Assembly: GCA_023255625.1 (NCBI GenBank)
Contig: JAHFLF010000001.1
Span: forward strand, 568,074 to 601,890
Direction: 5' to 3'
Length of the DNA: 33,817 nucleotides
Origin: Candidatus Harrisonbacteria bacterium
Lineage (GTDB): Bacteria > Patescibacteriota > Minisyncoccia > UBA6257 > 1-14-0-10-44-23
Positions within the stretch are counted from its first letter, which is position 1, and each line of letters starts with the position of its first letter. A program made the translations under genes and the position numbers. This document shows positions 4,292 to 29,860 of the stretch, one piece after another. The notes under the pieces are model-generated. The model was not told the DNA's origin and made no database searches. It saw only the letters and a list, made by a program, of their open reading frames with translations.

Positions 4292-4364
4292 ATTTTGACT
4301 ATGGTGGGTTAGGTGTGGCAGGGTAATGGCACGGCACAAACACCCGCAAGGGAGAGGAGGACGG

Positions 4365-5261
4365 ATGCCGCGTCTTGCATATATCATGTATTCGGCCCTC
4401 AAGAGCGGGGCCATGTCTGCGGTTCAGACCGGCGAGTTGTGCCGGAGCGGGCTTGCCGGCAGTCACGATCTTGCGATCCTGCGCCGCGACGGGCAGATGC
4501 TCACGCAGCGGGAGTGCCCGCGGTTGGCGCTGCTTCATTCTGCGTGCCAGCTCGGCGCGCGAGTCATCTCTGTGGATCTGGTTCTTCCATCCACGCAGAG
4601 CTTTACCGCTGACTTCAGGAGGGCGGAGCTGGCGGGCGTGGAGGGTATCTTCAACGGCGATCAAATCCCGTGTCTTGATGCGGGAGATCGAGCGGCTGCA
4701 TTCGTGACTGCTTTCGCCGGGGAGCCCTGCCGGCTGCTGATTCGTGACTACGCGCGTGATCGTCAGACGAAGTGGACTCACGCGGAGGTCAAGTCGTCGA
4801 TTGCCTGCCAGGATGGTTGGCCGTTCACGATCGTTTCGGTGGAGTCGCTCCGCGCCGTCGCCACCGCCGCAGGGCTCAAGGATGTAGAGCTGCTCGCGCT
4901 CATCAAGCGGATTCGCCCGACGCTCGTGGTGGACGGTATCGACGCATTCGAGGAGGACACCTGGAAGCGTATCCGCATCAAGACGGTCCGCGGCGATTGG
5001 ATCACGCTTGTCGTGATCAAGCGTCGCGGTCGGTGCGAGCTCCCGAATGTCAACCCGACTACAGGTGCGGTGGACTGGGTGCAGTCCAGTCGGCTCGTGA
5101 AAGTGCTCGTCGAGAGGATGGAGCGTCTGCTTCCGGAGTATCCCGGCAATCTGGGGTCGCATCGCATCGCGGCTCTGGCGATCGCACTCGGGCTGCAGGA
5201 TCCGCAGGCCCGGGGCACGGTCGCTCTCGGCGCGGGAATTGAGGTCTTGGATCATTGGTAG
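4365..5261 (+). CDS. MOSC-domain protein (GC-rich islet gene 1)
   Basis: ATG at 4365 follows ggagaggagg. N-terminus LKSGAMSAVQTGELCRSGLAGSHDLAILRRDGQMLTQRECPRLALL resembles MOSC_N; SVESLRAVATAAGL...IRPTLVVDGIDAFEEDTWKRIRI...GRCELPNVNPTTG resembles the MOSC core with its conserved Cys. Confidence 0.75.
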   Translation: MPRLAYIMYSALKSGAMSAVQTGELCRSGLAGSHDLAILRRDGQMLTQRECPRLALLHSACQLGARVISVDLVLPSTQSFTADFRRAELAGVEGIFNGDQIPCLDAGDRAAAFVTAFAGEPCRLLIRDYARDRQTKWTHAEVKSSIACQDGWPFTIVSVESLRAVATAAGLKDVELLALIKRIRPTLVVDGIDAFEEDTWKRIRIKTVRGDWITLVVIKRRGRCELPNVNPTTGAVDWVQSSRLVKVLVERMERLLPEYPGNLGSHRIAALAIALGLQDPQARGTVALGAGIEVLDHW

Positions 5262-5265
5262 CACG

Positions 5266-5287
5266 GCGGGTCCCCACGGGGACCCGC
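5266..5287 (+). terminator. Terminator-like hairpin after MOSC gene
   Basis: gcgggtcccc-ac-ggggacccgc followed by ttcaaattttt. Confidence 0.8.
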
Positions 5288-5323
5288 TTCAAATTTTTGG
5301 AGTATACTAATAATTCTTAATCT

Positions 5324-6418
5324 ATGAGTAGAGTTGTTCTTCATATAGACATGGATGCGTTTTTTGCCTCAGTTGAGGAGCGGGATCATCCGCGGATTAA
5401 GGGCATGCCAATTGTAGTTGGCGCAGATCCGGCGAACGGGAAGGGGCGCGGCGTTGTCTCAACTGCAAATTATGCGGCGCGAAAGTATGGCATTAAAAGT
5501 GCGCTGCCGATTAGCCGTGCCTGGGAATTGAGTCAGCAGGCAAAAAAGGCCGGACGGCCGGAGGTAGTTTTCTTTGAGCCGAATATAAAAAAGTATTCCG
5601 CGATTTCACACGAAATTTTTACTTATATCGGTACGCTAGGCGATGCCATGGAGCCGGCGAGTATTGATGAGTGTTATCTGGAAATAATAGACACAAGTGG
5701 CACGAGTAAACAAGTAGGCAAGTGGGAGGATGCAGAGAAGATTGCGCGCGAGATACAAGATAAAGTTCAAAAAGATTTTCAGTTGAGTTGTTCAATTGGC
5801 ATTGGGCCTAATAAATTAATCGCGAAGATTGCGGCTGGTCGGCAGAAGCCGCACGGGCTGACTGTTGTCCGCGAAGCAGTTCAGGAATTTTTAGATCCGC
5901 TCTCTGTGCGTGAGCTACGCGGGATTGGGCCGAAGACGGGTGCCGGGCTTCAAGAGATTGGGGTAGAGACTGTGAAACAGTTGCGGCAAAAGACAAAGGG
6001 CGATTTAATTGCTCATTTTGGTGTAAAGCACGGCGAGTCAATGTATAAGCAGGCGCGCGGCATTGATGATTCACCCCTTGAAACAAGTCGCGAGCAAAAA
6101 AGCAGCGGTAGTGAAACGACCTTTGATAAAGATACGCTAGATCCCTCGGAGATACTCGGGACGTTTCGCGCGCTCTCCGAAGAAGTTGCGAAGCAACTTA
6201 AAAAGAGCGCGAAACGGTTTAAAACAGTGAGCATTGTTGTGCGTTTTTCTGATTTTCAAACGCAGACCCGCTCGCATACACTGGAAGAGACAAGTGATGA
6301 GAAAACCGTTTTAGAAACAGAGGCGCTGAAGCTACTACTGCCATTTTTAGACAGTCGCGAAAATCCGAAACATAAAAAAATTCGACTGGTAGGGGTGCGG
6401 GCGGAAAAATTAGAATAG
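5324..6418 (+). CDS. dinB: DNA polymerase IV (Y-family)
   Basis: VVLHIDMDAFFASVEERDHP, SIDECYLEI, CSIGIGPNKLIAKIAAGRQKPHG, RELRGIGPKTG. Confidence 0.95.
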   Translation: MSRVVLHIDMDAFFASVEERDHPRIKGMPIVVGADPANGKGRGVVSTANYAARKYGIKSALPISRAWELSQQAKKAGRPEVVFFEPNIKKYSAISHEIFTYIGTLGDAMEPASIDECYLEIIDTSGTSKQVGKWEDAEKIAREIQDKVQKDFQLSCSIGIGPNKLIAKIAAGRQKPHGLTVVREAVQEFLDPLSVRELRGIGPKTGAGLQEIGVETVKQLRQKTKGDLIAHFGVKHGESMYKQARGIDDSPLETSREQKSSGSETTFDKDTLDPSEILGTFRALSEEVAKQLKKSAKRFKTVSIVVRFSDFQTQTRSHTLEETSDEKTVLETEALKLLLPFLDSRENPKHKKIRLVGVRAEKLE

Positions 6419-6424
6419 AATTCT

Positions 6425-6452
6425 ACTTAACAATTCTGACTAATTGTTAAGT
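6425..6452. repeat. 28-nt palindrome with the same 11-6-11 geometry as the ArsR-flanking sites
   Basis: ACTTAACAATT-ctgact-AATTGTTAAGT. Confidence 0.6.
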
Positions 6453-6471
6453 GAGGATTTTGAAAATGATT

Positions 6472-6501
6472 CCGCGCGGCGCTCTTGCGAGCGCCGCGCG
6501 G
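6472..6501 (-). terminator. Strong GC hairpin at the 3' end of the GC-rich minus-strand gene
   Basis: ccgcgcggcgctc-ttgc-gagcgccgcgcgg, 13-bp perfect stem. Confidence 0.7.
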
Positions 6502-6518
6502 AGGTGCGGCTGCTGATT

Positions 6519-7211
6519 CTACATCATCTTCTCGAACTCGCCCACGAGCATCCTGAACCGCTGCGGCACATTTAGGCGATTGAGCAGGCGATGCGAGAGC
6601 TTCTCTACGAAGACTTGGCCGACACGGTTGCGCCGCTCGTTCTCTCGGCTGACGATCTCGCGGGCCAGCTCGTAGAGCATAATGATCCGTGCAGCGGAGT
6701 GGAGACCCTCCTCTGTATATTCCACGAACCCCTTGATGGCGGCGTCCATGGCTCTGGCGCCCTCTTCCTCTTCTTGCCAATTCGCCGAGTCGTTTGGCGC
6801 GTAGATCAGTGACAAGATGAGCGCCTTGAGGTCATCTTCACAGAAGGTTACTGCACCATACGACCGGCGGTAGGCGATCATGAGACCGATCAGCACACCG
6901 GCCACGCCGCCATGCTTGAGGTGATTCACCCGGTTCATGCAGCCGCGCAGGACGGGGTTGCCCTTGGTTGGGTGCATCACTGACTGCATGAGCGCCGTCG
7001 CGATCCGGGACTTTGCGGCAAACTCTCCGGACTGTTTGGCCATCTCGTCGATGACGATGTCCACCGCCTGCTCCGGCGAACTTGCTCTTCCCAGGTTTCC
7101 CAGCACGATCAGTTCGATGGGGGTGGAGAAAACGGTCTTCGCCCCCCGGCCGCCCTCTTGCGTGTGAAGCAGGTTCATGTACCCCAGGAAGTCGTCGACA
7201 ATGCTCGACAT
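6519..7211 (-). CDS. Hypothetical protein (GC-rich islet gene 2)
   Basis: 230 aa ORF; ATG preceded by gaaaggagcggctg on the minus strand; composition differs visibly from flanking genes. No family recognised. Confidence 0.7.
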   Translation of the reverse strand: MSSIVDDFLGYMNLLHTQEGGRGAKTVFSTPIELIVLGNLGRASSPEQAVDIVIDEMAKQSGEFAAKSRIATALMQSVMHPTKGNPVLRGCMNRVNHLKHGGVAGVLIGLMIAYRRSYGAVTFCEDDLKALILSLIYAPNDSANWQEEEEGARAMDAAIKGFVEYTEEGLHSAARIIMLYELAREIVSRENERRNRVGQVFVEKLSHRLLNRLNVPQRFRMLVGEFEKMM

Positions 7212-7257
7212 CAGCCGCTCCTTTCAGAGCTTGTGCCCATCGTTATCAGGGCGTGCC

Positions 7258-7279
7258 TAACGAGATTTCAATCTCGTTA
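7258..7279. promoter_or_regulatory. Operator-like inverted repeat between divergent genes
   Basis: TAACGAGAT-ttca-ATCTCGTTA, between a minus-strand TTGACA (7308-7313) and the start of the GC-rich gene. Confidence 0.4.
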
Positions 7280-7349
7280 ATCTTACCCTCTATCTTTTTA
7301 GATGTCTTGTCAATTTCTTTTTACCGCATACTCGTTTATAGTTAGCTTC

Positions 7350-8210
7350 ATGTCCAAATACTATAATCCGCAAAAATCAGCTTCGTATTGTTTTGATCCA
7401 AAGAGCACGCAGCCGTTTCGCTTGAGCCGTAGCAAGATTGATTTATTTTTAGAGTGTCAGCGCTGTTTTTATATTGATCGTCGTATGGGCATCGGCCGCC
7501 CGCCAGGGTATCCTTTTTCGTTGAACTCGGCTGTTGATGCGCTTCTTAAAAAAGAATTTGATGGACACCGTGCCGCGCAGACGGCGCATCCGTTTATGAA
7601 ATCATACGGCCTGGACGCTATTCCTTTCGCCCACGAAAAAATGGACGAGTGGCGCGACTCGCTGCGCCGCGGCATTACCTATGTGCACCCGGCCACAAAT
7701 TTTAATGTTACGGGCGGAGTGGATGATGTCTGGGTTAATCCGGCCGGCGAACTGATTATTGTTGACTACAAGGCAACGGCCAAAGCCGGGGAGGTTAGTT
7801 TGGATGCAGAGTGGCAAAATGGATATAAGCGGCAGATGGAGGTGTATCAATGGCTGTTTCGGAAAAATGGATTTAAAGTTTCTCCAACCGGATATTTTGT
7901 GTATGTAAATGGCAAGTTAGATGCCGAGGCCTTTGATGGAAAACTAGAATTCAGCGTGAAACTAATTCCGTACGAAGGGGACACGCCGTGGGTGGAGCCG
8001 ACTTTAATTAAAATAAAAGAATGCCTAATGAGCGATGAGATTCCGGAAGCCAACGAAGAGTGTGATTATTGTCGCTACCGATTTGCGGTAAAGCGGGTGG
8101 AATTAAAAAGTGCAAATTTTCCCGCCGCGACGAGGCGCGAATCGGTAACCGAGTCAGAGAAATCAGCACCCAAGAAAATCACAAAACCAAAAACCGTTGG
8201 GCTATTTTAG
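7350..8210 (+). CDS. PD-(D/E)XK nuclease superfamily protein (Cas4/RecB-like)
   Basis: LSRSKIDLFLECQRCFYIDRRMG...VTGGVDDVWVNPAGELIIVDYKAT...YKRQMEVYQWLFRKNGF...CDYCRYR. ATG at 7350 preferred over 7302. Confidence 0.75.
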   Translation: MSKYYNPQKSASYCFDPKSTQPFRLSRSKIDLFLECQRCFYIDRRMGIGRPPGYPFSLNSAVDALLKKEFDGHRAAQTAHPFMKSYGLDAIPFAHEKMDEWRDSLRRGITYVHPATNFNVTGGVDDVWVNPAGELIIVDYKATAKAGEVSLDAEWQNGYKRQMEVYQWLFRKNGFKVSPTGYFVYVNGKLDAEAFDGKLEFSVKLIPYEGDTPWVEPTLIKIKECLMSDEIPEANEECDYCRYRFAVKRVELKSANFPAATRRESVTESEKSAPKKITKPKTVGLF

Positions 8211-8234
8211 CTTTACAACACTTGACGGAATTTG

Positions 8235-8263
8235 GCAAGCATGCTAGTATCAAATTGCACGTA
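8235..8263 (+). promoter_or_regulatory. Promoter-like sequence upstream of the RRM gene
   Basis: TTGACG-17 nt-TAGTAT, followed by a ~100-nt leader containing the hairpin tccactttcgagtgga. Confidence 0.6.
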
Positions 8264-8359
8264 GGTATCTTTGGTCTCCGATCGTATTCCACTTTCGAGT
8301 GGATGGTTACCAGGGAAGGTCTTTCTACGGTAAGAATCTAGAAATTTGTTTTACAAGAA

Positions 8360-8638
8360 ATGAAGAAGTTGTATGTAGGGAACCTTCCTTACTCAACGAC
8401 CAGCGACGACCTCCGCACTATGTTTGCGGCAGCCGGCGCAGTTGCTTCAGCTACGGTTATCATCGACAAGATGAGCGGCCGCAGCAAGGGCTTTGGTTTC
8501 GTTGAGTTCGAAAACGACGCGGACGCTGATAAGGCGATCGAGACGTTTAACGGTAAGGACATGGATGGTCGCCCGCTCACAGTTAACGAGGCCCGCCCGA
8601 TGGCTCCTCGAACTGGCGGCGGCTTTGGCCGGATGTAG
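8360..8638 (+). CDS. RRM-domain RNA-binding protein
   Basis: KLYVGNLPYSTTSDDL (RNP2) and RSKGFGFVEF (RNP1). Confidence 0.92.
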   Translation: MKKLYVGNLPYSTTSDDLRTMFAAAGAVASATVIIDKMSGRSKGFGFVEFENDADADKAIETFNGKDMDGRPLTVNEARPMAPRTGGGFGRM

Positions 8639-8673
8639 TCTTTATCGGTCTTTGGACTGATTAAGAAACTAGA

Positions 8674-8707
8674 AAATGCACCTTGAATACGCAAGGTGCA
8701 TTTTTGC
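8674..8707 (+). terminator. Rho-independent terminator of the RRM gene
   Basis: aaatgcaccttg-aatacg-caaggtgcattttt. Confidence 0.85.
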
Positions 8708-8766
8708 GTAATCGCAAAAATCGACGGCACCAGTTCATTCTTCTGTTTTGTGTTATCATTACTCGC

Positions 8767-10470
8767 ATGTCGTTTTCCGAAGAAGTTAAAAAAATTATCA
8801 AAGGCGAGGTGTTCGAAGATGAGTCGGCACTTACAAAATACAGCCACGATGCGAGTATTTTTGAAGTTCGTCCGCAGCTGGTAGTTGCGCCAAAAGATGC
8901 CCAAGATATTCAAGCTCTAGTGAAATTTGCAAACGAGCAGCGCGGACAAAATAAAAATGTTTCACTGACTGCTCGATCGGCCGGCACAGACATGAGCGGT
9001 GGGCCGCTCTCTGAATCAATCATCCTGGATATGACGGCGCATTTTAATCAAGTTCAGGATGTTCAAATTGATCCGGACAAGCAGGGAGGATTTGCCGTTG
9101 TCGAGCCGGGCGCATATTATCGCGATTTTGAAAAAGAAACTGACCGGCGCGATTTGATGATGCCGAGCTATCCGGCTTCAAAAGGTCTGTGTACGGTCGG
9201 CGGGATGGTTGCCAACAATGCCGGTGGTGAAAAAACGCCGGCGTACGGCAAGACTGAAAATTATTTATTGGAACTCAAGGTTGTTCTTGCTGACGGGAAC
9301 GAGTACACGATTAAGCCGTTGACGGAGTCAGAGCTTGAGGCGAAGATGGCCGAGCCAACTTTTGAGGGAGGGGTCTATAAAAAACTTTATACACTGATCA
9401 CTGACAACCGAAAACTGATAACTGATGCAAAACCGAATGTTACAAAAAACTCCGCCGGATATTATTTGTGGAATGTCGTAGGGCCTGCTTTTGGCAGACC
9501 CGAAGATCCCGCCGCAGGCGCGGATTCAAAATTTGATCTTTGTAAACTTTTCGTTGGTTCACAGGGTACACTCGGTATTATTACGCAGATTAAATTCCGA
9601 CTAGTTCCAAAGAAGAAATTTTCCAAGTTGTTGGTGCTTTTTTTGCGGCCGCGGCACATGAAAGACCTTGGCAATATCATCGTTGAACTAAAAAAGCATG
9701 CTCCGGAGACGATTGAATCATACGATGACAACACGCTCAAGCTGGCGATGAGGTTTTTCCCCGATCTTCTGAAGATTTTGAAGCCCAAAAATATGTTAGT
9801 AATGGCTTGGCATTTATTCCCGGAATTTTGGATGTTTTTGACCGGGGGCATGCCCAAAATGGTGATTATGGCCGAGTTTACCGGGGACGATCTGAAAGAT
9901 TTGCATGCGCGAATCCATGAGTCGGCAGAGCCGATGAAGAAGTTTGGCGTGAAAATTCGTATTACGGCGAGTGAGGAGGAGGAGCGTCAGTTCTGGGTGA
10001 TTCGTCGTGAGAGTTTTAGTTTGATGCGCAACAAAGTGAAGGATCGTCACAGCGCGCCGTGTATTGATGATTTTGCGGTGCTCGCTGAAAAGTTGCCGGA
10101 GTTTTTGCCAAAACTGCAGGCAATTTTAGACAAATATCATTTTAGCTACGGAATGGCGGGTCATCCCGGAGACGGTAATTTTCATATTTTCCCGATGCTG
10201 AAAATGGAGGATCCAAACGAACGCGCCATCATCCCAAAGTTGTCTGATGAAGTGTACAACCTGGTGCTTGAGTACAAGGGGACTATTACGGCAGAACATA
10301 ACGATGGGCTTATCCGCACGCCGTATTTGGAAAAAATGTATGGGCCGGAGGTTATCGCGTTATTTGAGCAGACAAAAAAGATTTTTGATCCGCTGGGGAT
10401 TTTTAATCCGGGGAAGAAAACAGGCGGCTCGCTCGGGTACTCAATGGCGCATATTCGGAAAAGCTTTTAA
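8767..10470 (+). CDS. FAD-binding oxidase, GlcD/D-lactate dehydrogenase-like
   Basis: TARSAGTDMSGGPLS, VEPGAYYRDFE, GLCTVGGMVANNAGGEKTPAYGKTENYLLELKVVLADG, GSQGTLGIITQIKFRL, HPGDGNFH. ATG at 8767 preferred because 8683 lies in the upstream terminator. Confidence 0.88.
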   Translation: MSFSEEVKKIIKGEVFEDESALTKYSHDASIFEVRPQLVVAPKDAQDIQALVKFANEQRGQNKNVSLTARSAGTDMSGGPLSESIILDMTAHFNQVQDVQIDPDKQGGFAVVEPGAYYRDFEKETDRRDLMMPSYPASKGLCTVGGMVANNAGGEKTPAYGKTENYLLELKVVLADGNEYTIKPLTESELEAKMAEPTFEGGVYKKLYTLITDNRKLITDAKPNVTKNSAGYYLWNVVGPAFGRPEDPAAGADSKFDLCKLFVGSQGTLGIITQIKFRLVPKKKFSKLLVLFLRPRHMKDLGNIIVELKKHAPETIESYDDNTLKLAMRFFPDLLKILKPKNMLVMAWHLFPEFWMFLTGGMPKMVIMAEFTGDDLKDLHARIHESAEPMKKFGVKIRITASEEEERQFWVIRRESFSLMRNKVKDRHSAPCIDDFAVLAEKLPEFLPKLQAILDKYHFSYGMAGHPGDGNFHIFPMLKMEDPNERAIIPKLSDEVYNLVLEYKGTITAEHNDGLIRTPYLEKMYGPEVIALFEQTKKIFDPLGIFNPGKKTGGSLGYSMAHIRKSF

Positions 10471-10557
10471 ACATTCGGTTGCGGCGGGGTCAAGAGCGGC
10501 AGGGATACCTTTTACTGCCGCCTATGACCCCGCCGCAACCGAACCCTTCTTAAAAGC
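10463..10557. repeat. Structured stem-loop element with GGATACCTTTTA loop, copy 1
   Basis: gcttttaa...ttcggttgcggcgggg-TCAAGA-gcggcag-GGATACCTTTTA-ctgccgc-CTATGA-ccccgccgcaaccgaa...ttaaaagc; shares loop and internal-loop nucleotides with 25246-25329. Confidence 0.75.
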
Positions 10558-10611
10558 GATCGAACATGCAGCCATAAATAATCCCTCGCTCGCTAAACAG
10601 GGGAACATACA

Positions 10612-10830
10612 ATGAAAATTTCTGTGCGTGTTACGCCGAATTCAAAAAAGCCAGAGGTTATTGAAATTGCACCCGGCACATACAGAGTCAAAGTAAATGC
10701 AAAACCGATTGATGGTGCGGCGAATATCAGACTCATTGAAATTCTGGCCGAGCATTTTAAGGTTTCGTTCGGCGCGATACGGATTTTAAGCGGCGCGACG
10801 AGCAGAGAGAAGGTGATTGAGATAATTTGA
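10612..10830 (+). CDS. DUF167 / YggU family protein
   Basis: 72 aa; ISVRVTPNSKKPEVI...YRVKVNAKPIDGAANIRLIEILAEHFKVSFGAIRILSGATSREKVIEI. Confidence 0.85.
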   Translation: MKISVRVTPNSKKPEVIEIAPGTYRVKVNAKPIDGAANIRLIEILAEHFKVSFGAIRILSGATSREKVIEII

Positions 10831-10855
10831 CTATTTTCATAAAGCATGGTATTTA
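10827..10855 (+). promoter_or_regulatory. Promoter-like sequence for GC-rich islet gene 3
   Basis: TTGACT-17 nt-TATTTA. Confidence 0.5.
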
Positions 10856-10967
10856 TTTTTATGACCGAGCCGCCGTGTGCGCGGTTTGATCATGTTCGCT
10901 GACCGAGAGCCGATGTTGGGACCACTCAACACGGGTCAACTCAAGGCGGCGGAATTAAGGAGGGCCC

Positions 10968-11723
10968 ATGGCCCAGATGCGCGTTTTCTTCAGGCGTGAG
11001 GCGTTCGCAGAGGGCGGACCGATCCTTCGAAGTGCGGAGCGCGGCGGCGGCTCCTATTCCTATCAAGGGAAGCCGCTCGGAAAGGATGATGAAGGACCGT
11101 TCGCACTCTTCGAGGACGAGGGCGAAGTGCCCTATGACCTCAAGCCGTTCGTGAGTCACGCCACGCTCTTCGCAGTCTTCGCGGCGGAGCCGGTGCGCGA
11201 GCGCGGGCGGTATGTGAATGCCAGCGCGAAGGGCGTCCTGGATTTTCAGGACGCAAGTCGGAGGCAGTATGAGCTCCGAGCCACGGCCAGGAAGCAGTCC
11301 CATCTCTGGGAGATGCTTCGTCTCATCCGACTCGGTCAGATCAAGCCCTACGAGTTGTATGGCGGTAAGCTGCCCGAGATCCTCGGGCTCGAAGCCGAGA
11401 TCGCCCAGCTCCGAAAGAACTTCGATGACGAAGCGAACGACCGCGACCGGCTCATCGCGGAAGCACGACGAACGATTCACTATATCGTCTCTGCCGTGGG
11501 GCGTATTCAGGAGGAGCACTGGTTTGGCAGGTTCTTCGGTCGTCGGGGGAGAGTGAGCAGGATGTTCTTCTCTCTGGATGCCCTTCGGCCGTTCTTCACG
11601 AGCCACGCAGAGCCGAATGTGGTCTTGGCCGAACTGATGGGCCGGGAGTACTGGGCGTCCCGCCGTCAGCAGGTCGAGATGTTCGTCGTTCGTACTGAAC
11701 GGAAGAGGTGGTGGTCGGCCTGA
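10968..11723 (+). CDS. Hypothetical protein (GC-rich islet gene 3)
   Basis: 251 aa ORF starting MAQMRVFFRREAF; preceded by aaggagggccc; GC-rich composition; ends before a strong hairpin. Confidence 0.7.
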   Translation: MAQMRVFFRREAFAEGGPILRSAERGGGSYSYQGKPLGKDDEGPFALFEDEGEVPYDLKPFVSHATLFAVFAAEPVRERGRYVNASAKGVLDFQDASRRQYELRATARKQSHLWEMLRLIRLGQIKPYELYGGKLPEILGLEAEIAQLRKNFDDEANDRDRLIAEARRTIHYIVSAVGRIQEEHWFGRFFGRRGRVSRMFFSLDALRPFFTSHAEPNVVLAELMGREYWASRRQQVEMFVVRTERKRWWSA

Positions 11724-11746
11724 CCCCCATCATCAAGTAGCAAGAC

Positions 11747-11778
11747 CGGGCTCGGGGTGGACATTCACCCCGAGCCCG
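11747..11778 (+). terminator. Rho-independent terminator of GC-rich islet gene 3
   Basis: cgggctcggggtg-gacatt-caccccgagcccg followed by tgttcttttttaaattgtttttttt. Confidence 0.9.
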
Positions 11779-11821
11779 TGTTCTTTTTTAAATTGTTTTT
11801 TTTGATTTTCTGTGGTATTTT

Positions 11822-11880
11822 CTACTCACTACTTTTTCTTGCAAACTGACCAACTAACTGACTAACCAATTAACTAGCTC
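11822..11880 (+). repeat. Degenerate ACTAAC/ACTGACC micro-repeat tract directly upstream of obgE
   Basis: tactcactactttttcttgcaaactgaccaactaactgactaaccaattaactagctcc, ending 1-2 nt before the ATG. Confidence 0.7.
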
Positions 11881-11882
11881 CA

Positions 11883-13006
11883 TGTTAACCGACGAAGTCA
11901 AACTACATATTAAAGCAGGACACGGAGGGGCCGGTAAAGTCTGCTTTAGCACGATTCCTAGAAACATGGGCCCAACCGGTGGAAATGGCGGGCACGGCGG
12001 CTCGGTTTACCTTGAGGGCGTTTCTGATTTAGCTGCGCTTAGGCAGTATCGCTATAAAAAAGATTTTTTTGCTGAGGATGGCATTCGCGGTGGCGAGGCA
12101 AATCGCGAGGGTAGAAAAGGCGAAGACCTTATTCTCAAAGTTCCGATTGGTACGATGGTTCGGGCGCGGCTTACGAATGCCGACCAAATGGAGCACGACC
12201 CGCAGGAGGGCGGCACGTTTCAGGGGGTGCACGAGGGCGGTTTACCCTCCAAACTTTCTGCAAGAAAGTTAGGAGGGGGACTGCATGGCGGCATCACCGA
12301 AAAAGAGTTTGAAGTCACAAAAGTTGGCGAGCGAATTTTAATTGCAAAGGGCGGCAAGGGTGGCAAGGGAAACTTTATGTTCCGTTCATCGCGCAATCCG
12401 TCACCGATGATTGCACAACCGGGGTTACCCGGTGAGGAGTTTGATGCTGATTTTGAACTGCGTATTATTGCCGACATCGGGCTGATTGGGCTGCCAAACG
12501 CCGGCAAGTCGTCTCTGCTCAATGAGCTGACCAAAGCTGGCGCGCGCGTGGCCAACTATCCGTTTACAACTCTTGAGCCAAATTTGGGCGTGTATTACCC
12601 ATCAGCAATTTTGAAGGCAAGCGACGAGGAGCAGAAAAAGGCGACGCCGATTATCATCGCTGACATTCCGGGATTAATTGAGGGCGCCTCGGCTGGCAAG
12701 GGGTTGGGCTTTAAATTTTTGCGACATATTGAACGAACAAAAGTTGTGATTCACTGCGTTGCGGCCGACTCGGTTGATATTAGTGCGGGCTATAAGGCAG
12801 TGCGTGGCGAGCTCTCAAAATATGACAAGCTGCTTGCGGCAAAAGAGAGTTACATTTTTTTGACCAAGAGCGATCTGGCTGACGCTGCCACGCTGAAAAA
12901 ACACATGACCGCGCTCAAGCGGTTCAAGAAGCCAGTGCTTACGGTTTCAATTCATAACCAAGAACAACTTGGGGAGGTAAAGAAGTTGCTTGACCGGATG
13001 AGTTGA
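11883..13006 (+). CDS. obgE: Obg-family GTPase
   Basis: MLTDEVKLHIKAGHGGAGKVCF...GGNGGHGGSVYL...GLPNAGKSSLLNELTKA...ADIPGLIEGASAGKGLGFKFLRHIERTK. The ORF track start of 11882 may differ by 1. Confidence 0.93.
12245..12277. repeat. Palindrome inside the obgE coding sequence
   Basis: CCCTCC-a-AACTTTCT-gca-AGAAAGTT-a-GGAGGG, encoding part of GGLPSKLSARKLGGGLHG. Confidence 0.75.
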
Positions 13007-13032
13007 TCTGGTATTCTTTTTGATATTAGTTT

Positions 13033-13068
13033 TAACTCGTACTCACTACTCGTTTACTCGTTACTTTC
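13033..13068 (+). repeat. Degenerate ACTCGTT micro-repeat tract directly upstream of the FKBP gene
   Basis: aactcgtactcactactcgtttactcgttactttc immediately before ATG. Confidence 0.65.
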
Positions 13069-13563: not shown

Positions 13564-13583
13564 AGCCGTGGTATAGTAGAAAT

Positions 13584-13844: not shown

Positions 13845-13882
13845 AAATTAAAAAGTGAAATTCTTGCGCAAATAATCCAATT

Positions 13883-14203: not shown

Positions 14204-14287
14204 TTCCGCCGCATTCTTGCTATCTCTGAATAAATAGTGTATTATATATGCACGCTACAGAGGCGCCATCCGGCGCTTTTGTGTTTC

Positions 14288-14383: not shown

Positions 14384-14391
14384 AAAATACT

Positions 14392-16179: not shown

Positions 16180-16184
16180 ATTGT

Positions 16185-16210: not shown

Positions 16211-16240
16211 TACGCTTGCAGCCCGGCTTTATCTCGGGGT

Positions 16241-18619: not shown

Positions 18620-18620
18620 T

Positions 18621-20074: not shown

Positions 20075-20077
20075 ATA

Positions 20078-20578: not shown

Positions 20579-21198
20579 TCACAATTTTTTTTGTCATCGT
20601 CCTCATATTTTCCGTCATCATCCACGAAATTTCGCATGGCTATGTTGCCTTGTGGCTCGGGGATACAACCGCAAAGGATGCCGGACGACTGACGCTGAAC
20701 CCGCTGGCGCATATTGATTTATTCGGGTCGATTTTATTTCCGCTCATGCTAGCGCTGGTCGGCGCGCCAGTTTTCGGTTGGGCTAAGCCGGTGCCATATG
20801 ATCCGCGGTTTTTGAAAAATCCGCAAAAGGCGGCGGGGCTGATTGCTCTGGCCGGACCGGCCAGCAATTTAGCAATGGCGATTATCTTTGCGCTAGTCAG
20901 CCGGATTTTACTCGGCAGTCTTGCTACAGAATTCACTGCCAGCTTGTACTTATTTGTTGTAATCATCGTCCAGGTCAATGTCGCGCTGGCGGTTTTTAAT
21001 CTTTTGCCAATTCCGCCTCTTGATGGCTCGGGCGTATTATTTTCTCTGTTGCCGCGGGGTACGGAGAGGGTGCAGATTTTCCTGCAGCGGTATGGTTTTT
21101 ACATTCTCATCTTCCTGATTTTTACCGGTTTAAATTTTTTAAATCCAGTTATGAGTGCGCTGTATCGGTTACTGCTCGGGCCAATGCCGATGCAATGA
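20575..21198 (+). CDS. Site-2 protease-like membrane metalloprotease (M50)
   Basis: IIHEISHGYVALWLGD (HExxH); LAVFNLLPIPPLDGSGVLFSLLP. Confidence 0.9.
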   Translation: MITIFFVIVLIFSVIIHEISHGYVALWLGDTTAKDAGRLTLNPLAHIDLFGSILFPLMLALVGAPVFGWAKPVPYDPRFLKNPQKAAGLIALAGPASNLAMAIIFALVSRILLGSLATEFTASLYLFVVIIVQVNVALAVFNLLPIPPLDGSGVLFSLLPRGTERVQIFLQRYGFYILIFLIFTGLNFLNPVMSALYRLLLGPMPMQ

Positions 21199-21207
21199 TT
21201 CTATAGC

Positions 21208-21247
21208 TTGCTTATACCGTAGTTCTGCAGAACTACGGTATAAGCAA
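21208..21247. repeat. 40-nt perfect palindrome upstream of rpsL
   Basis: ttgcttataccgtagttctgcagaactacggtataagcaa; no T-tract. Confidence 0.75.
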
Positions 21248-21253
21248 CTTAGT

Positions 21254-21283
21254 TTGACAGTCATAGGTGGAATGCTGTATCTT
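21254..21283 (+). promoter_or_regulatory. Promoter-like sequence of the rpsL operon
   Basis: TTGACA-18 nt-TATCTT, followed by a long leader before rpsL at 21456. Confidence 0.55.
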
Positions 21284-21455
21284 ATAGCTAGTCCCAGTTA
21301 GGGATTTTTATATTCTTTTTGCGATACAGTCTAGATCACTGTGTGTCATGCTGACAGCAGAGAGAATATGCTTTCGCTTTGAAATTATTAAACCGGACTC
21401 CGAGTAACAGTCGAGTACGACTGAGATCCCTCGGCTTCGGGATGACGTACAAAAA

Positions 21456-21878
21456 ATGCCTACCATCCGACAACTCGTAAAGAAGGGGAGATCGCCGCTC
21501 GCGACTAAATCAAAATCGCCGGCGATGAACCGTTACTTTAACTATATATTGAATGTTCCGAAGCAAATTCCTGCGCCTTTTAAGCGCGGTGTTTGCGTAA
21601 AAGTGTTTACTACGACTCCGAAGAAACCAAACTCTGCAATCCGTAAGGTGGCGCGTGTTCGACTAACAAACGGCATGGAGGTTACCGCTTATATTCCTGG
21701 CGAGGGCCACAATTTGCAGGAGCACTCTGTCGTTATGATCCGCGGTGGCCGCGTGAAAGACTTGCCGGGCGTTCGCTACCACATTGTCCGGGGCGTACTC
21801 GATACTGCCGGCGTTGAGGGTCGCAAACAGCAACGGTCGGCTTATGGAGCCAAGACGCCGAAGGCGGAAGCAAAATAA
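21456..21878 (+). CDS. rpsL: 30S ribosomal protein S12
   Basis: [11 protein letters not shown]...[70 protein letters not shown]. Confidence 0.98.
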
Positions 21879-21894
21879 AGAAAATTTTCAATTC

Positions 21895-21981
21895 TCAATT
21901 TCTAATTTCTAAACAATTCTCAATTTAGAAATTCCGAAATTAAATCATTGTTTGAAAATTGAAAATTAGAAATTGAAAATT
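21895..21981. repeat. 87-nt AT-rich fold-back repeat, copy A, upstream of rpsG
   Basis: Identical over 87 nt to 30423-30509. Confidence 0.9.
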
Positions 21982-21992
21982 AATGAATCTAT

Positions 21993-22460
21993 ATGCGCAA
22001 AAAGCGAAACTATAAAAGAGAGCACAAGCCGGATTTGAAATTTGGCAATGTCTCCGTTGGCCGTTTTATCAACTGCTTAATGTGGGATGGTAAAAAGTCG
22101 GTGGCGGAAAAAGTTGTTTATGATTCTTTTGATCTCATCAAAGAGCAGACGAAAGAGGAACCGCTCGTTGTCTTCCAAAGAGCTTTTGAGAATGTTGCCC
22201 CGTTAGTTGAAACTTCCAGCAAGCGCGTTGGTGGCGCTAACTACCAAGTGCCGCGCGAGGTACGCCCGGATCGCAAATTTTTGCTGGCCACCCGATGGAT
22301 TATTGGTGCCGCCCGCGCCAAGAAAGGCAAGGATATGTCTAAGCGTTTAGCCGAAGAAATTATTTTGGCTGCTAAAAATGAAGGTAACGCTATTAAAAAG
22401 AAGCAGGATGTTCACCGGATGGCGGAGGCAAACAGAGCATTTGCGCATTTCTCTTGGTAG
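21993..22460 (+). CDS. rpsG: 30S ribosomal protein S7
   Basis: MRKKRNYKREHKPDLKFGNVSVGRFINCLMWDGKKSVAEKVVYDSF...RVGGANYQVPREVRPDRK. Confidence 0.97.
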   Translation: MRKKRNYKREHKPDLKFGNVSVGRFINCLMWDGKKSVAEKVVYDSFDLIKEQTKEEPLVVFQRAFENVAPLVETSSKRVGGANYQVPREVRPDRKFLLATRWIIGAARAKKGKDMSKRLAEEIILAAKNEGNAIKKKQDVHRMAEANRAFAHFSW

Positions 22461-22475
22461 AAAATTGGCAAATGA

Positions 22476-22565
22476 ATTTTCAATTTCTAATTTTCAATTT
22501 TTAAACAATTTGAGAATTTAGAAATTAATCATTGTTTAGAAATTAGAAATTTAAAATTAGAAATT
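22476..22565. repeat. Diverged AT-rich fold-back repeat upstream of fusA
   Basis: Shares words CAATTTCTAATTT, TTAAACAATT, GAATTTAGAAATT, ATCATTGTTT and TTAGAAATT with the 87-nt repeat. Confidence 0.7.
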
Positions 22566-24689
22566 ATGGCCCGTCAGTATCCTCTCGAAAGAACTCGTAA
22601 CTTCGGTATCGTGGCCCACATTGATGCGGGTAAGACAACCACATCTGAACGCGTTCTTTACTATACCGGCGTCAGCCACAAAATCGGCGAGGTGCACGAG
22701 GGCGACACGGTGATGGACTGGATGGATCAGGAGCGCGAACGCGGAATTACGATTACCTCGGCAGCGACTACCGCTTTTTGGACTCCGACATATATTAGCA
22801 AGGAGGAGCGGGCGAAAAACAAAGATGCAAATGCCTATCGTTTTAATTTGATCGACACGCCGGGACACATTGACTTTACCGTTGAGGTGAAGCGGTCTCT
22901 TCGGGTTCTGGACGGTGCAGTCGTTGTCTTCGATGGAGTTTCCGGCGTTGAACCTCAAAGTGAAACGAACTGGCGCTATGCCGATGAATATAATGTGCCG
23001 CGTATTTGTTTTATCAATAAACTTGACCGGATGGGCGCGAGTTTTGAGAATAGTTTGCAATCAATTAAAGATCGTTTAAATCCTGGCGCAATTGCTGCCC
23101 AATTACCGATCGGTAGTGAGGCAAATTTCAGCGGTATTATCGATTTGCTGACACAAAAGGCCTATGAGTTTGAGGGAGACAAGGGCAATGTGATTAAAGA
23201 GATTCCGATTCCGGCCGACATGGCAGAAGAGGTTTCAAAGCGCCACAAGGAATTGGTTGAAAAAATTGTTGAGAACGACGACCTGTTAATGGGCAGTTAT
23301 TTAGAGGGCAAGGAGCCGTCTTTGGCTGATTTGAAACGCGTACTCCGAAAGGCCGTGCTCGCTGTTAAGATTATTCCGGTTTATACCGGTTCGGCTTTGA
23401 AGAATAAAGGCGTGCAACTCGTGCTCGACGCAGTGGTTGATTATTTGCCGAGTCCGCTGGATTTGCCGCCGGTTAAAGGAATTGATCCAAAGACAAATGC
23501 AGAAATTTTCCGCAAGCCATCTGATGAGGAGCCATTTTCAGCGCTGGCATTCAAGATTATGGCTGATCCGTTTGTCGGTTCGCTGACCTTCTTCCGGGTT
23601 TATTCCGGCACGCTCAAGCGCGGCAGTTATGTCTATAACGCGACCAAAGGGGAGACCGAGCGCGTTGGCCGTATTTTGCGGATGCACGCAAATGAACGGG
23701 AAGAGTTGGAGGAGATTGAAGCCGGCAACATCGGAGCGCTGGTTGGCATGAAAGATACGACTACCGGCGACACTCTTTGTTTTGAAGAGAAGCCGATTAT
23801 TCTGGAAAAAATTATCTTCCCGGAGCCGGTTATCTCTATTCGTGTTGAGCCGAAGACCAAGGCCGACCAGGAAAAGATGGGCATGGCACTGCGCCGTTTG
23901 GCTGATGAGGATCCGACCTTCCGAGTTTCCGGTAACGCTGAAACCGGCGAGACAATTATTGCCGGCATGGGTGAATTACACCTGGAGGTTTTGGTGGAGC
24001 GCATGAAAAGGGAATTTGGCGTGGAGAGTAATGTCGGCCGTCCGCAGGTTTCATATAAAGAAACTATTACGAAAGCATCGGAAGCAGAGGGTAAGTATAT
24101 CAAGCAGTCCGGTGGCCGCGGTCAGTATGGTCATGTTCGCTTACGCATTGAGCCGCTGCCGCGTGGTACGGGTTTTGAATTTGTGGACGAAATTAAAGGT
24201 GGCTCAATTCCAAAAGAATTTATTGCACCGGTTGAAAAAGGTATTGAAGAGGCGCTGACCCGCGGCATCCAGGCCGGTTACAGAATAATTGATGTGCGCG
24301 CGACGCTGTACGACGGTAGTTATCACGAGGTTGACTCATCTGAAGCCGCATTTAAAATTGCCGCGTCAATGGGTTTTCAGGCCGCCTGTAAGACCGCGGC
24401 TCCGATTATTCTCGAGCCGATCATGAAGGTGCAGGTGATTGTGCCGACCGAATACATGGGCGATATTACCGGCGACATTAGCAGTAAGCGTGGGCGCATT
24501 GAAGGAATGGGCGACCGGCCGATGGTGAAAGTTATCGATGCGTTTGTGCCGCTTTCGGAAATGTTTGGTTACGCGACCAAGCTGCGTTCGATGACACAGG
24601 GCCGCGGAAACTTTACGATGGAATTTTATGCGTATGAGCCGGCTCCGAATAATGTGACGAAGGAGATCATCGAAGGTAAGCGGCAGTAA
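22566..24689 (+). CDS. fusA: Elongation factor G
   Basis: [25 protein letters not shown]...[44 protein letters not shown]; full-length EF-G. Confidence 0.98.
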
Positions 24690-24694
24690 TCAGT

Positions 24695-24766
24695 AAGCAA
24701 AAAGCCCGCACTTTTTTAACCGGGCCCACCCTACGGGATGGTTAAAAAAGTGCGGGCTTTTTGCTT
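24695..24766 (+). terminator. Long terminator hairpin after fusA
   Basis: aagcaaaaagcccgcacttttttaacc...ggttaaaaaagtgcgggctttttgctt, perfect complementary arms. Confidence 0.85.
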
Positions 24767-24821
24767 TCCCTGAAATACTGTATATTCAAATTAGCCGTTA
24801 AGAACATTAATTATTTATCAT

Positions 24822-25220
24822 ATGCGTATTTTTTCTATGAGCGTCCTGTCGAGTATCGGTTTTATCGCACAAAGTTTTATCGCTCGCGCCGCCGCGGTTT
24901 GCCGGGTCAACGGCGAGGTGGTTCCCTGCGGAGAGCTTGGCGATGCGGTCAAGGGTTTTGCCGCAGTCGCTTTTATTATTCCGCTAATATTTGCAGTTGT
25001 CGGAATTTTACTTTTTATTTTTTGGATCATGATGCTGGTGCACGCAGCAAAGCACCCGATTGAAAATAAGCCGCTCTGGATAATTATTATCCTGCTCGGG
25101 AACGGGGTTGGCGCAATTATTTATTATTTCGTGGTCAAGCGCCATTTTGTTTCTATGCCGATAACCGTTGCGCCGCAGCCGCCATCTGGTCCAGTTACGC
25201 CGCCACCAGCGGGAGAATAG
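24822..25220 (+). CDS. Small membrane protein with PLDc_N-like segment
   Basis: FWIMMLVHAAKHPIENKPLWIIIILLGNGVGAIIYYFVVKR. Confidence 0.65.
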   Translation: MRIFSMSVLSSIGFIAQSFIARAAAVCRVNGEVVPCGELGDAVKGFAAVAFIIPLIFAVVGILLFIFWIMMLVHAAKHPIENKPLWIIIILLGNGVGAIIYYFVVKRHFVSMPITVAPQPPSGPVTPPPAGE

Positions 25221-25245
25221 TTAATTCTTGCCAAGTTGGTTTTCG

Positions 25246-25329
25246 GTATGACGCGGGGGCAAGTCCGCTCAAGATGAGCACGGATACCTTTTAGTGCTCC
25301 CTATGATCGGACTTGCCCCCGTGTCATAC
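25246..25329. repeat. Structured stem-loop element with GGATACCTTTTA loop, copy 2
   Basis: gtatgacgcgggggcaagtccg-c-TCAAGA-tgagcac-GGATACCTTTTA-gtgctcc-CTATGA-t-cggacttgcccccgtgtcatac. Confidence 0.75.
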
Positions 25330-25353
25330 AGGAAGATGTCCTTATGCAGCCCA

Positions 25354-25381
25354 TTGACAATTTTCCGCCCGTCCGTATAAT
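25354..25381 (+). promoter_or_regulatory. Promoter-like sequence of tuf
   Basis: TTGACA-16 nt-TATAAT. Confidence 0.75.
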
Positions 25382-25452
25382 TACTGAACATTTAGGACTG
25401 GCTCGGCCAGTTCTCATTCATTAATAAATAAAACAATTTTTAAGTAAAAGGT

Positions 25453-26655
<1,203 letters not shown>

Positions 26656-26696
26656 CGCTATACGCTATACGCGCTGCGTTACACGATCCTTATCAT

Positions 26697-27080
26697 ATGA
26701 CTGCTGCAACTGTAAAAAAGACTGTGAAGGTCCCTGCCGCCGCCAAGACGGTTGCTAAGCCCGAGGTTGTAACGAAGGAGAAGCTGCGTCTGCGTATCAA
26801 AGCGTATGACACAAAGCTGATTGATACTTCGTGTCGCCAGATCATTGAGGCCGCGAAGAAGCATGAGGCCAAAGTAGTCGGGCCGATTCCTCTGCCGACT
26901 GAATTTAAAAAATTCACAGTCAACCGTTCAGCATTCATCGATAAGAACTCGCGCGAGCAGTTTGAGCTCCGCATCCATAAACGGCTCATCGATATATTGC
27001 ATCCAACGCAGCAGATTATTTCTTCGCTTAGCACGCTCAATCTTCCTGCTGGCGTCGACATAGAAATAAAAATGGTGTAG
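26697..27080 (+). CDS. rpsJ: 30S ribosomal protein S10
   Basis: [72 protein letters not shown]. Confidence 0.97.
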
Positions 27081-27189
27081 CGCTCGTTGGTATTTTCGAG
27101 CACCGGGTCATATTTTTCTGCTGAAAAATTGCCCTGCATCTCGCGCCGTCGCGCTGCGATAGCTGCTCGAGAAACACCAACTTCACGCT
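27080..27189. repeat. Multi-branched structured element directly downstream of rpsJ
   Basis: Outer stem GTTGGTATTTTCGAGCA / TGCTCGAGAAACACCAAC plus AGCG/CGCT extension; inner hairpins ATTTTTC-tgct-GAAAAAT and a ctcgcgccgtcgcg hairpin. Confidence 0.55.
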
Positions 27190-27225
27190 TTGTGATTGGA
27201 GAAGGAAAGGGGAAAAGAGCAATTA

Positions 27226-27253
27226 GTAAAAGCCGCTGCAAGGCGGCTTTTAC
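27226..27253. terminator. Bidirectional terminator between rpsJ and the minus-strand ORF
   Basis: gtaaaagccgc-tgcaag-gcggcttttac. Confidence 0.8.
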
Positions 27254-27257
27254 GTTT

Positions 27258-28232
27258 CTAGTCAACAATTCTTATCTTCTGGAAATTCTTGCCTTCTAAT
27301 CCGGGGATGTTAATTGGCTCCCATGAGACCCGTGCAGCTTCTGCCTGTGTGGGCGAAAGCACGGTTTCAATAAAACTGTCGTCGCGTTTTTTGAGCGCTC
27401 CAATGCCAGCCCAGAATTTTGCTACTGATGTTTTTGTGCTGCCGACGGCGATTACTTTATTAATAGGATTTGTGAATACTGTAATTCTTCCCGGTTTCTG
27501 ATAATAAGGACGCTTTTGACTGAGGCTGAGGTATGCATTGTGTAGAAGTTGATTTTTTTCTCTCCAGAAAGGGTCATTATCTTGACCAGATTTTAATTTA
27601 ACATTGAGTTCAATGCTGCCTTTCTGTTGCTCAGTGAGTTGCGGAAGCGCACCGCCGTTTTCCTTATTGATCTTTTCTATTTTTTCGTTGATTTCATCAA
27701 CAAATCCTGTTCCAGTATAACGATCACCGACGCGACTAAATACTAGTTGCATATTTTCTGGCAGGATTTTTTTCATGAACTCCATGAGTTCAAGGAAGCC
27801 AGCAATATAGGATTCAGTGTCAGTCTTTGGAACATTATTGAGCATCTCTATAACAACGTCATCGGAGCAAAATTCAAAACAGAAGCCAGGTTTATAGTTT
27901 TCCGCGATTGGTTTTAGCCACTTTAGAAAATAAACCAGGCTAAATAATTCAGCCCAGTCTGGTTCAGGACTTTCTTCAAGGCGCCATAACTTGTTTGCAC
28001 CGAAAGGAAAATCAAAATGTATTGGTTTGTTACTTTTTATGTTGAGTGCGATAGCCGAATTGATATGCTGAAGATACTCAGGTTGCACGCCGTACTTTCT
28101 GAATTTTTTCGAAAGAACAGCTTTTTTGATGAGTTCAATCAAAGCCTCCGGCGTAGCTGTGTTCGCATCTGGTATTTTTATGGCACGCAAGGATTCCAGC
28201 TGCTCAATTATATATTCCTTTGGTGTTTTCAT
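27258..28232 (-). CDS. Hypothetical protein
   Basis: 324 aa ORF, backbone-like composition, directly downstream of tRNA-Cys on the minus strand; no family recognised. Confidence 0.75.
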   Translation of the reverse strand: MKTPKEYIIEQLESLRAIKIPDANTATPEALIELIKKAVLSKKFRKYGVQPEYLQHINSAIALNIKSNKPIHFDFPFGANKLWRLEESPEPDWAELFSLVYFLKWLKPIAENYKPGFCFEFCSDDVVIEMLNNVPKTDTESYIAGFLELMEFMKKILPENMQLVFSRVGDRYTGTGFVDEINEKIEKINKENGGALPQLTEQQKGSIELNVKLKSGQDNDPFWREKNQLLHNAYLSLSQKRPYYQKPGRITVFTNPINKVIAVGSTKTSVAKFWAGIGALKKRDDSFIETVLSPTQAEAARVSWEPINIPGLEGKNFQKIRIVD

Positions 28233-28242
28233 CGTTTGAAGG

Positions 28243-28314
28243 AGATGCAGGCAGGAATTGAACCCGCGTATTCTGCTTTGCAGGCAGACGCCTGAACCAC
28301 TCGGCTACTGCATC
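28243..28314 (-). tRNA. tRNA-Cys (GCA)
   Basis: Minus strand GATGCAG TA GCC..GGC G TCTGC-CTGCAAA-GCAGA ATAC GCGGG-TTCAATT-CCTGC CTGCATC T. Cloverleaf with anticodon GCA, U73, no encoded CCA. Confidence 0.93.
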
Positions 28315-28456
28315 TTTTACAGTATATCATTTTGTGCTGTTTTGGGGCAAAGATTTTAGTGATTATTTGCTTTTTTATTCGAAGTGTGTTATTTGTATAC
28401 GCATAAGACCTATAGGGCATGGCGCCCAGGCAACCCTTCGGGGAGGAGTAGGTTCA

Positions 28457-29026
28457 ATGGAGCTCGCGATCAGTCTTACGCCCAACACGCTGGCGGCTCT
28501 GGGACTTTTCGACATCTATGCCAGGATGGTTCTGGTCCTGGACTTGGCGCTCGAGCACTTCGGAACGGTCGAACACTGCGGAAATCCGGCCGTAGACCCG
28601 CTCCGCACCGGCTTCGCTGTCAGCATCCTGCACCGGCCGACCGGGCGATACATCGTGGTTCCGCACGGTACATTCGCCCATCCCAAGTACATCTTCGACC
28701 GGGTTGGGCAGTACATGGTCAACGCCGCCGAGAAGGTAACGAGGACGCATCGGCGTCGGGACGAGACGAGCTACCCGAGTCGTGATCCGGACCGCAATAT
28801 GTACGCCGGAGCCGTCCGGGTCGGTGACTACATCATCGCCATCTCCGGACTTTCCAGCGGCTGGAAGGACCAGGCGGCGGTACTGGTCGCAGGCCGATCC
28901 ATCACCATGCCGGAAACAGACCGCCTGTCTGCGGCGGATGCGCTGCGCATCGCCTTCGAGACGCAAGATCCGGAATACGCGTCGTTCGTCGGCTTTGCGG
29001 GCAAGCATCTCCAGCTCACGGAGTAG
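28457..29026 (+). CDS. Hypothetical protein (GC-rich islet gene 4)
   Basis: ATG at 28457 after ggggaggagtaggttca; MELAISLTPNTLAALGLFDIYARMVLVLD...; GC-rich composition; followed by hairpins. Confidence 0.65.
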   Translation: MELAISLTPNTLAALGLFDIYARMVLVLDLALEHFGTVEHCGNPAVDPLRTGFAVSILHRPTGRYIVVPHGTFAHPKYIFDRVGQYMVNAAEKVTRTHRRRDETSYPSRDPDRNMYAGAVRVGDYIIAISGLSSGWKDQAAVLVAGRSITMPETDRLSAADALRIAFETQDPEYASFVGFAGKHLQLTE

Positions 29027-29089
29027 CCGTTTCGGGCAACAGTGACCTCTGCCCGAGTCGTAGTACAACTGAATCTTTTTCAACAGCAC

Positions 29090-29132
29090 GGGCGCCGCTC
29101 GTGCGACTCGAGGGTCGCATGTCACGGCGCCC
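29090..29132 (+). terminator. Strong GC hairpin after islet gene 4
   Basis: GGGCGCCG...TGCGAC-tcgagg-GTCGCA...CGGCGCCC followed by ttaagtttta; preceded by CGGGCA...TGCCCG hairpin. Confidence 0.7.
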
Positions 29133-29167
29133 TTAAGTTTTATTGCGTTTTGAATTTTTATTTCATT

Positions 29168-29196
29168 TTGACTTTTCAATTCCTAGAGACTAGAGT
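29168..29196 (+). promoter_or_regulatory. Promoter-like sequence of GC-rich islet gene 5
   Basis: TTGACT-17 nt-TAGAGT, followed by palindrome attgggcgcccaat. Confidence 0.5.
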
Positions 29197-29231
29197 CATT
29201 GGGCGCCCAATTGCGCAGAAGGAGGCAGAAG

Positions 29232-29666
29232 ATGCCGCTCGTTTTCGACGGCTTTCGGGTAGATGACCGACTTCTTGATGCTCTTGTGCATGGGCGGATC
29301 TGTTCTATTCGCCATGCCGAATCTGCCTTGCGCGCCATCTGTCATCAGCCACGGCGCCCTACGGTGATGGGCCGGGGTGCGATGCTCTGGCAGCCGCTCT
29401 GCGAGTTCAAGGCGGGCGGATCGGTTGTGCTGGAGGTGATTGAGGGATATTGCGTGACTAGGTTTCACGAAAATCCCGATGCTGGCATCAGGATCCATGG
29501 ATTCAAGGGTGCGGCCAAGATCCTGCTGCCGGGCAGGATCCTTCATGGAGAGGTTTCTGGTGTATCCGTGATGACTCTGCCTCCAGGACTCATCTATCAG
29601 AAAGAGGTGCAGTCTCTCTTCGTCGGCATTCTGCATCTGCCTTCACGGGTTCGGGTTGAACAGTGA
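29232..29666 (+). CDS. Hypothetical protein (GC-rich islet gene 5)
   Basis: ATG at 29232 after gaaggaggcagaag; 144 aa MPLVFDGFRVDDRLLDALVHGRICS...; followed by strong hairpin. Confidence 0.65.
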   Translation: MPLVFDGFRVDDRLLDALVHGRICSIRHAESALRAICHQPRRPTVMGRGAMLWQPLCEFKAGGSVVLEVIEGYCVTRFHENPDAGIRIHGFKGAAKILLPGRILHGEVSGVSVMTLPPGLIYQKEVQSLFVGILHLPSRVRVEQ

Positions 29667-29679
29667 GGAGGAAGCAAGT

Positions 29680-29703
29680 CGGGCCGCGCACACGCGCGGC
29701 CCG
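29680..29703 (+). terminator. Strong GC hairpin after islet gene 5
   Basis: cgggccgcgc-acac-gcgcggcccg. Confidence 0.8.
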
Positions 29704-29717
29704 AAACATTTATGCAT

Positions 29718-29854: not shown

Positions 29855-29860
29855 ATCCCA

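Follow-up and report, generated by a model that had tools for sequence, protein, structure and literature searches.

Single-gene transfers that carry their own promoter and terminator are known as phage morons (PMC2147016). Two further described systems, the cassettes of integrons and superintegrons and the genomic islands of Patescibacteria (PMC12455944), also come close to the subject of this report, a set of solitary gene cassettes rich in guanine and cytosine (GC) in the genome of a Candidatus Harrisonbacteria bacterium. Five of these cassettes lie in the window, by which we mean the whole stretch of 33,817 nt that was analysed; it forms the end of contig C8 of an assembly of 0.93 Mb in 12 contigs that is 94.9% complete. 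Like morons, each cassette sits as a lone gene between neighbours that adjoin each other in relatives, has a putative promoter and terminator of its own and deviates in base composition, and gain and loss are apparently frequent. Unlike morons, the cassettes lie between the housekeeping genes of a bacterial chromosome and amount to at least 55 units. With integron and superintegron cassettes they share mostly single orphan genes, high turnover and a fixed orientation at each site, but no attC-type repeat and no integrase above cut-off were found for them, and they are unarrayed and have a putative promoter and terminator for each unit. The genomic islands of Patescibacteria are likewise DNA of distinct composition, gained horizontally by organisms of this kind; they are, however, multi-gene blocks, whereas the units described here hold one or two genes and occur chromosome-wide. 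Judged by analogy, the presumed mode of action of the cassettes matches that of phage morons, moved to a bacterial chromosome. No published description of such cassettes was found in the literature searched, for which journal coverage was partial.

We consider it probable that the five window genes belong to a genome-wide set of horizontally acquired, self-contained transcription units of one, sometimes two, genes. At the level of sequence this reading is carried by the architecture of the units, their foreign codon usage, empty sites and insertion hotspots in relatives, and the patchy distribution of the cassette 4 family. The five open reading frames (ORFs) of a preliminary description of this DNA were all recovered, at 4365..5261 (+), 6519..7211 (-), 10968..11723 (+), 28457..29026 (+) and 29232..29666 (+), and they are, as had been claimed, more GC-rich than their surroundings. 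Their GC contents are 0.632, 0.595, 0.612, 0.625 and 0.568 (thus 0.57-0.63), with values at third codon positions (GC3) of 0.75, 0.79, 0.75, 0.78 and 0.60, against 0.405-0.521 and GC3 of 0.39-0.61 in eleven neighbouring genes. The strong Shine-Dalgarno (SD) sequences, stable 3' hairpins and promoter-like upstream sequences that had been noted held up as well. A strong SD sequence precedes all five genes, and a perfect or near-perfect GC-rich hairpin lies 3' of each, with a T-run after hairpins 1-3, a shorter one after hairpin 4 and a weak one after hairpin 5. All but gene 4 have TTGACA or TTGACT no more than 190 nt upstream; here and throughout, promoters and terminators of cassettes are consensus matches. 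Codon usage, scored as a leave-one-out log-likelihood, marks four window genes as clearly foreign (0.18-0.24 per codon) and gene 5 as borderline (0.019 per codon). The cassettes are flanked by genes for polymerase IV, obgE, bipA, EF-Tu and ribosomal proteins, and no phage genes were seen around them.

Rather than forming the "family of five" first proposed, the window genes encode unrelated proteins and are a local sample of a larger set. The genome-wide survey read 742 kb, taken as stretches (contigs C8 and C3 whole, C1 mostly), with gene calls from a custom script rather than a gene finder. A two-state GC model called 80 GC-rich segments in these 742 kb, equal to 9.8% of the DNA, not all of which are cassettes; one segment of 4.6 kb (C3:27749-32327) lies inside a single ORF of 1587 amino acids and is not a small cassette. 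Cassette genes were curated by reading frame, SD sequence and codon-position GC, with doubtful cases dropped by eye, which gave 70 genes in 55 units (42 of one gene, 12 of two and 1 of four). The cassette proteins are mutually unrelated, with one paralogous pair (E 1e-23) among 83. About a dozen of the 70 match Pfam and most are orphans, the recognisable products including PurB, PyrF, kynureninase, a formyltransferase, a Crp-type regulator and a radical SAM protein.

Signals of the same kind recur across the set. TTGAC[AT] is present in the 180 nt upstream of 19 of 48 first-in-cassette genes, compared with 3.7 in shuffles, and GC ahead of first genes has a low of 0.38 roughly 135 to 90 nt upstream, then climbs to 0.60 at the start. 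Past the cassette hairpins GC drops immediately from 0.82 to 0.24. Hairpins were located no more than 120 nt downstream of 24 of 70 cassette genes versus 35 of 391 backbone genes, and an SD match of at least 5 nt accompanies 74% of the GC-rich segments with an ORF versus 23% of backbone genes, ORFs having been picked blind to the SD and backbone genes by a like rule. In leave-one-out comparison 97% of the 70 cassette genes and 0% of the 391 backbone genes are nearer the cassette set in codon usage, a separation that is partly built in because the set was partly selected by GC. The cassettes are thus clearly distinct from the backbone by this measure, which had been proposed as a check on the preliminary description. 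Codon shares in cassette and backbone genes are 0.86 vs 0.27 for TTC and 0.90 vs 0.37 for AAG. TTA, which like the stop codons was under no direct selection in assembling the set, makes up 6 of 1396 leucine codons in cassette genes, and their stop codons comprise 43 TAG, 22 TGA and 5 TAA.

Conserved adjacent gene pairs were compared between the window genome and four genomes of the same family (G001-G004, parts of G004 being N). At sites with a GC-rich segment in the window genome, 26 comparisons found the relative empty and 7 found it occupied; at sites with none, 156 of 158 comparisons found the relative empty and 2 found it occupied. The resulting odds ratio for occupancy is 21 (Fisher P = 7e-5), although several comparisons share one site and are not fully independent. 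Sites occupied in the window genome are therefore more often occupied in relatives, which shows that there are insertion hotspots. Orientation is the same in all seven occupied cases, which comprise five unrelated genes, one ortholog and one doubtful case. The 26 empty adjacencies, in which the relatives' genes are in several cases a mere 16-45 bp apart, show the insertion between otherwise adjacent genes that is typical of morons, and with such empty sites present the set does not consist of orthologs fixed at the same loci. At the site of cassette 2, G004 carries another GC-rich cassette, unrelated but oriented alike, and the genes that flank cassette 3 are 45 bp apart in that genome. The rpsJ-rplC gap holds one unrelated cassette in G004 and about three small ones in G001, and is empty (196 bp) in G002. 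Within 464 kb of the four relatives, homologs were found for 2 of 70 cassette proteins versus 236 of 625 backbone proteins (P 5e-11). GC-rich segments number 3.7-14 per 100 kb in genomes of the family; in sampled genomes from the rest of the order their density is about 2 per 100 kb. In the relatives' contigs 6 of 19 such segments are at contig ends versus 0.9 expected (P 3e-4), an excess that would be expected if the segments vary between strains.

Beyond the family the window proteins are sparsely represented. Gene 1 has one Pfam match, a divergent MOSC domain, and was not found in 40 relatives, while genes 2-5 have no Pfam matches. Gene 2 is absent from the other 243 genomes of the order, and the predicted structure of its product is poor (predicted local distance difference test score, pLDDT, 46). 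The structure model of gene 4 is weak and weakly suggests a Roadblock/HbpS-like fold, its best matches all having E > 0.1. A first search of the phylum with several joined cassette proteins located relatives of gene 4 in the genomes G415 and G421, and a family profile then detected members in 9 of 380 phylum genomes, each from a different taxonomic family. GC exceeds that of the flanks in 5 of the 7 with a readable ORF, and most have a strong SD sequence. A viral or plasmid origin was considered and rejected, as genes 2 and 3 have no relatives in IMG/VR and gene 4 none in phage or plasmid records. A phage origin of the PurB cassette was likewise set aside, since the matching "phage" records (up to 55%) look like bacterial DNA.

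The homolog of gene 4 in G415 resides in an array whose genes are often single and mostly share one strand (contig C32, 37.4-64.3 kb; L204:7360-20000 and L205). The array starts at a tRNA gene, by eye tRNA-Asp, and its units are separated by a repeat of about 88 bp, GTTCTAAC...GATGTAGAAC, present in some 15 copies, the first of which overlaps the 3' end of the tRNA. No integrase was seen near the array, and a single tyrosine recombinase was found in the G415 genome. A few of the repeat copies adjoin type III hammerhead ribozymes (Rfam RF00008, below gathering score). Hammerheads within the repeats flank the gene 4 homolog at L192:1058-1114 and 1854-1910 (E 2e-5 and 2e-4) and are also present in L204, L207 and L208. 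A pattern search for them was positive in G415 only, with none in the window genome or its family.

On the reading as horizontally acquired units, each brings along, besides its one GC-rich gene, a putative promoter rich in AT, a leader that is GC-rich and holds a strong ribosome-binding site, and a putative terminator hairpin, and the promoters and terminators would be functional. Such a unit could be expressed between housekeeping genes without read-through into them. New DNA may arrive by natural transformation, which is possible given that a ComEC-family gene is present in the window genome; natural competence has been demonstrated in Saccharibacteria (PMC10633639). Alternative cassettes might then replace one another when the conserved genes on either side undergo homologous recombination. 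The simplest account would be repeated horizontal gain into preferred intergenic sites, followed by exchange. The genomes of Patescibacteria are small and supposedly streamlined, and the organisms live on other microbes. That a tenth of the sampled DNA is GC-rich, consisting mostly of insulated orphan genes turning over at fixed sites, would make the cassettes a visible accessory genome of these organisms and a place to seek host-interaction factors. They would also make it possible to test the acquisition of single genes by chromosomes where no mobile element is obvious.

Several observations weigh against horizontal acquisition. No donor was found, the best match of gene 1 being 34% identical. 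Cassette GC3 spans 0.59-0.89, too wide for a single donor, and the preference for TAG argues against ordinary high-GC donors, a comparison with high-GC bacteria that draws on general knowledge. Terminator-like hairpins were also encountered distant from cassettes, and the family is represented by only five genomes, with the relatives sampled in part. At one site two genera keep a GC-rich ortholog (about 38% identity), which means that high GC does not mark recent arrival alone. Together with the TAG:TGA ratio of the cassettes (43:22), which resembles that of the backbone (142:60), this ortholog makes a class of native genes the main rival. Under that explanation the cassettes would be fast-evolving, lineage-specific genes in which selection for expression maintains the high GC content, strong ribosome-binding sites and codon bias, and whose absence elsewhere reflects divergence or fast loss; promoters of the ordinary TTGACA/TATAAT type fit it too. 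We regard it as unlikely. Speaking against it are the empty adjacencies, several of them very short, single sites shared by different unrelated genes, the spread of the cassette 4 family across distant lineages, and recognisable enzymes such as PurB, PyrF and kynureninase with foreign codon usage.

Distinctly less likely is that a dedicated site-specific system, whether integron-like or based on a tyrosine recombinase that acts on sites in the chromosome, places single-gene units in fixed orientation. The hotspots with their conserved orientation, the tRNA-anchored repeat array of G415 and the three tyrosine recombinases in the window genome, two of them by the kynureninase cassette, speak for it. 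So does a palindrome, GTACTAGTAC, that lies beside some cassettes, with 9 of 13 copies in cassette-flank intergenic DNA versus about 3.2 expected from intergenic spread. Against it, the cassette edges have no motif in common, and no reproducible junction motif, of the shared kind that the preliminary description had suggested looking for, was found. No attC-type site was found with each cassette gene, repeat families being near only some cassettes, and all three tyrosine recombinases score below the TIGR02249 cut-off, so that no integron integrase was found. The integron reading was rejected on these grounds. The units are also dispersed over the sampled contigs rather than arrayed behind a common promoter. 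A shared repeat as cassette boundary was rejected as well: several dispersed families are near cassettes and none marks most of them, such repeats lying between genes just as cassettes do. Of the "cassette-like acquisition or expression system" first suggested, acquisition is thus upheld by codon usage, architecture, empty sites and hotspots, while a dedicated system, with neither junction motif nor integron-type recombinase, is not. Assembly chimerism or contamination, to which the abrupt change of GC at cassette edges might point, is very improbable because inserts of the same type are present in the independent assemblies of G001-G004, within ribosomal, translation-factor and DNA-repair loci; the listed contamination of the window genome is 0. 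Returning to acquisition, a broader version of it seems doubtful to us but can be stated. It would posit a phylum-wide pool of insulated single-gene cassettes and a dedicated mechanism that sets them, always in one orientation, into Patescibacteria chromosomal hotspots between housekeeping genes, with storage in some lineages (G415) as tRNA-anchored arrays whose repeats partly carry hammerhead ribozymes.

Within the window, cassette 1 has a possible -35 element, TTGACT (4295..4300, +; a consensus match only). Its gene encodes a divergent MOSC_N/MOSC-domain protein of 298 amino acids, has the SD sequence GGAGAGGAGG, ends in TAG and is followed by a terminator-like hairpin (5266..5287, +) and then TTCAAATTTTT. 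Cassette 2, between the genes for DNA polymerase IV and a PD-(D/E)XK nuclease, is read from the minus strand, with a possible -35 element TTGACA at 7308..7313 (-), a 230-amino-acid orphan and a terminator-like hairpin with a 14-bp stem (6471..6502, -). In cassette 3 the possible -35 element TTGACT (10827..10832, +) is 17 nt ahead of TATTTA, and the gene, a 251-amino-acid orphan flanked by obgE and a small ORF of DUF167 type (10612-10830; named by eye), precedes a terminator-like hairpin (11747..11778, +) and TGTTCTTTTTT. The gene of cassette 4 (189 amino acids) is followed by a terminator-like hairpin with an outer 8-bp stem (29090..29132, +). Cassette 5 comprises a possible -35 element TTGACT (29168..29173, +), a 144-amino-acid orphan with marginally foreign codon usage, and the hairpin with the weak T-run (29679..29704, +). 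Cassettes 4 and 5 occupy the rpsJ-rplC (L3) insertion hotspot (27081..29984, no strand assigned), which follows rpsJ (S10; 26697-27080, named by position) and also holds a DIT1/PvcA-like gene (E 4e-4, below cut-off) and a tRNA-Cys gene. These last two, at 27258-28314 and both on the minus strand, separate rpsJ from rplC.

Two tyrosine recombinase genes adjoin the kynureninase cassette at L026:2076-4626 (-). The palindrome with core GTACTAGTAC has 13 copies in the 742 kb, 12 of them no more than 800 bp from a GC-rich segment (e.g. C8:282767, 448649 and 538665; L123:11607; L138:10271), and it also adjoins cassettes in G001. Local repeats of two families, with 18 and 13 copies and medians of 184 and 240 bp, are found at C8:27741-37029 (L009), with many copies crowded into about 10 kb, away from cassettes.

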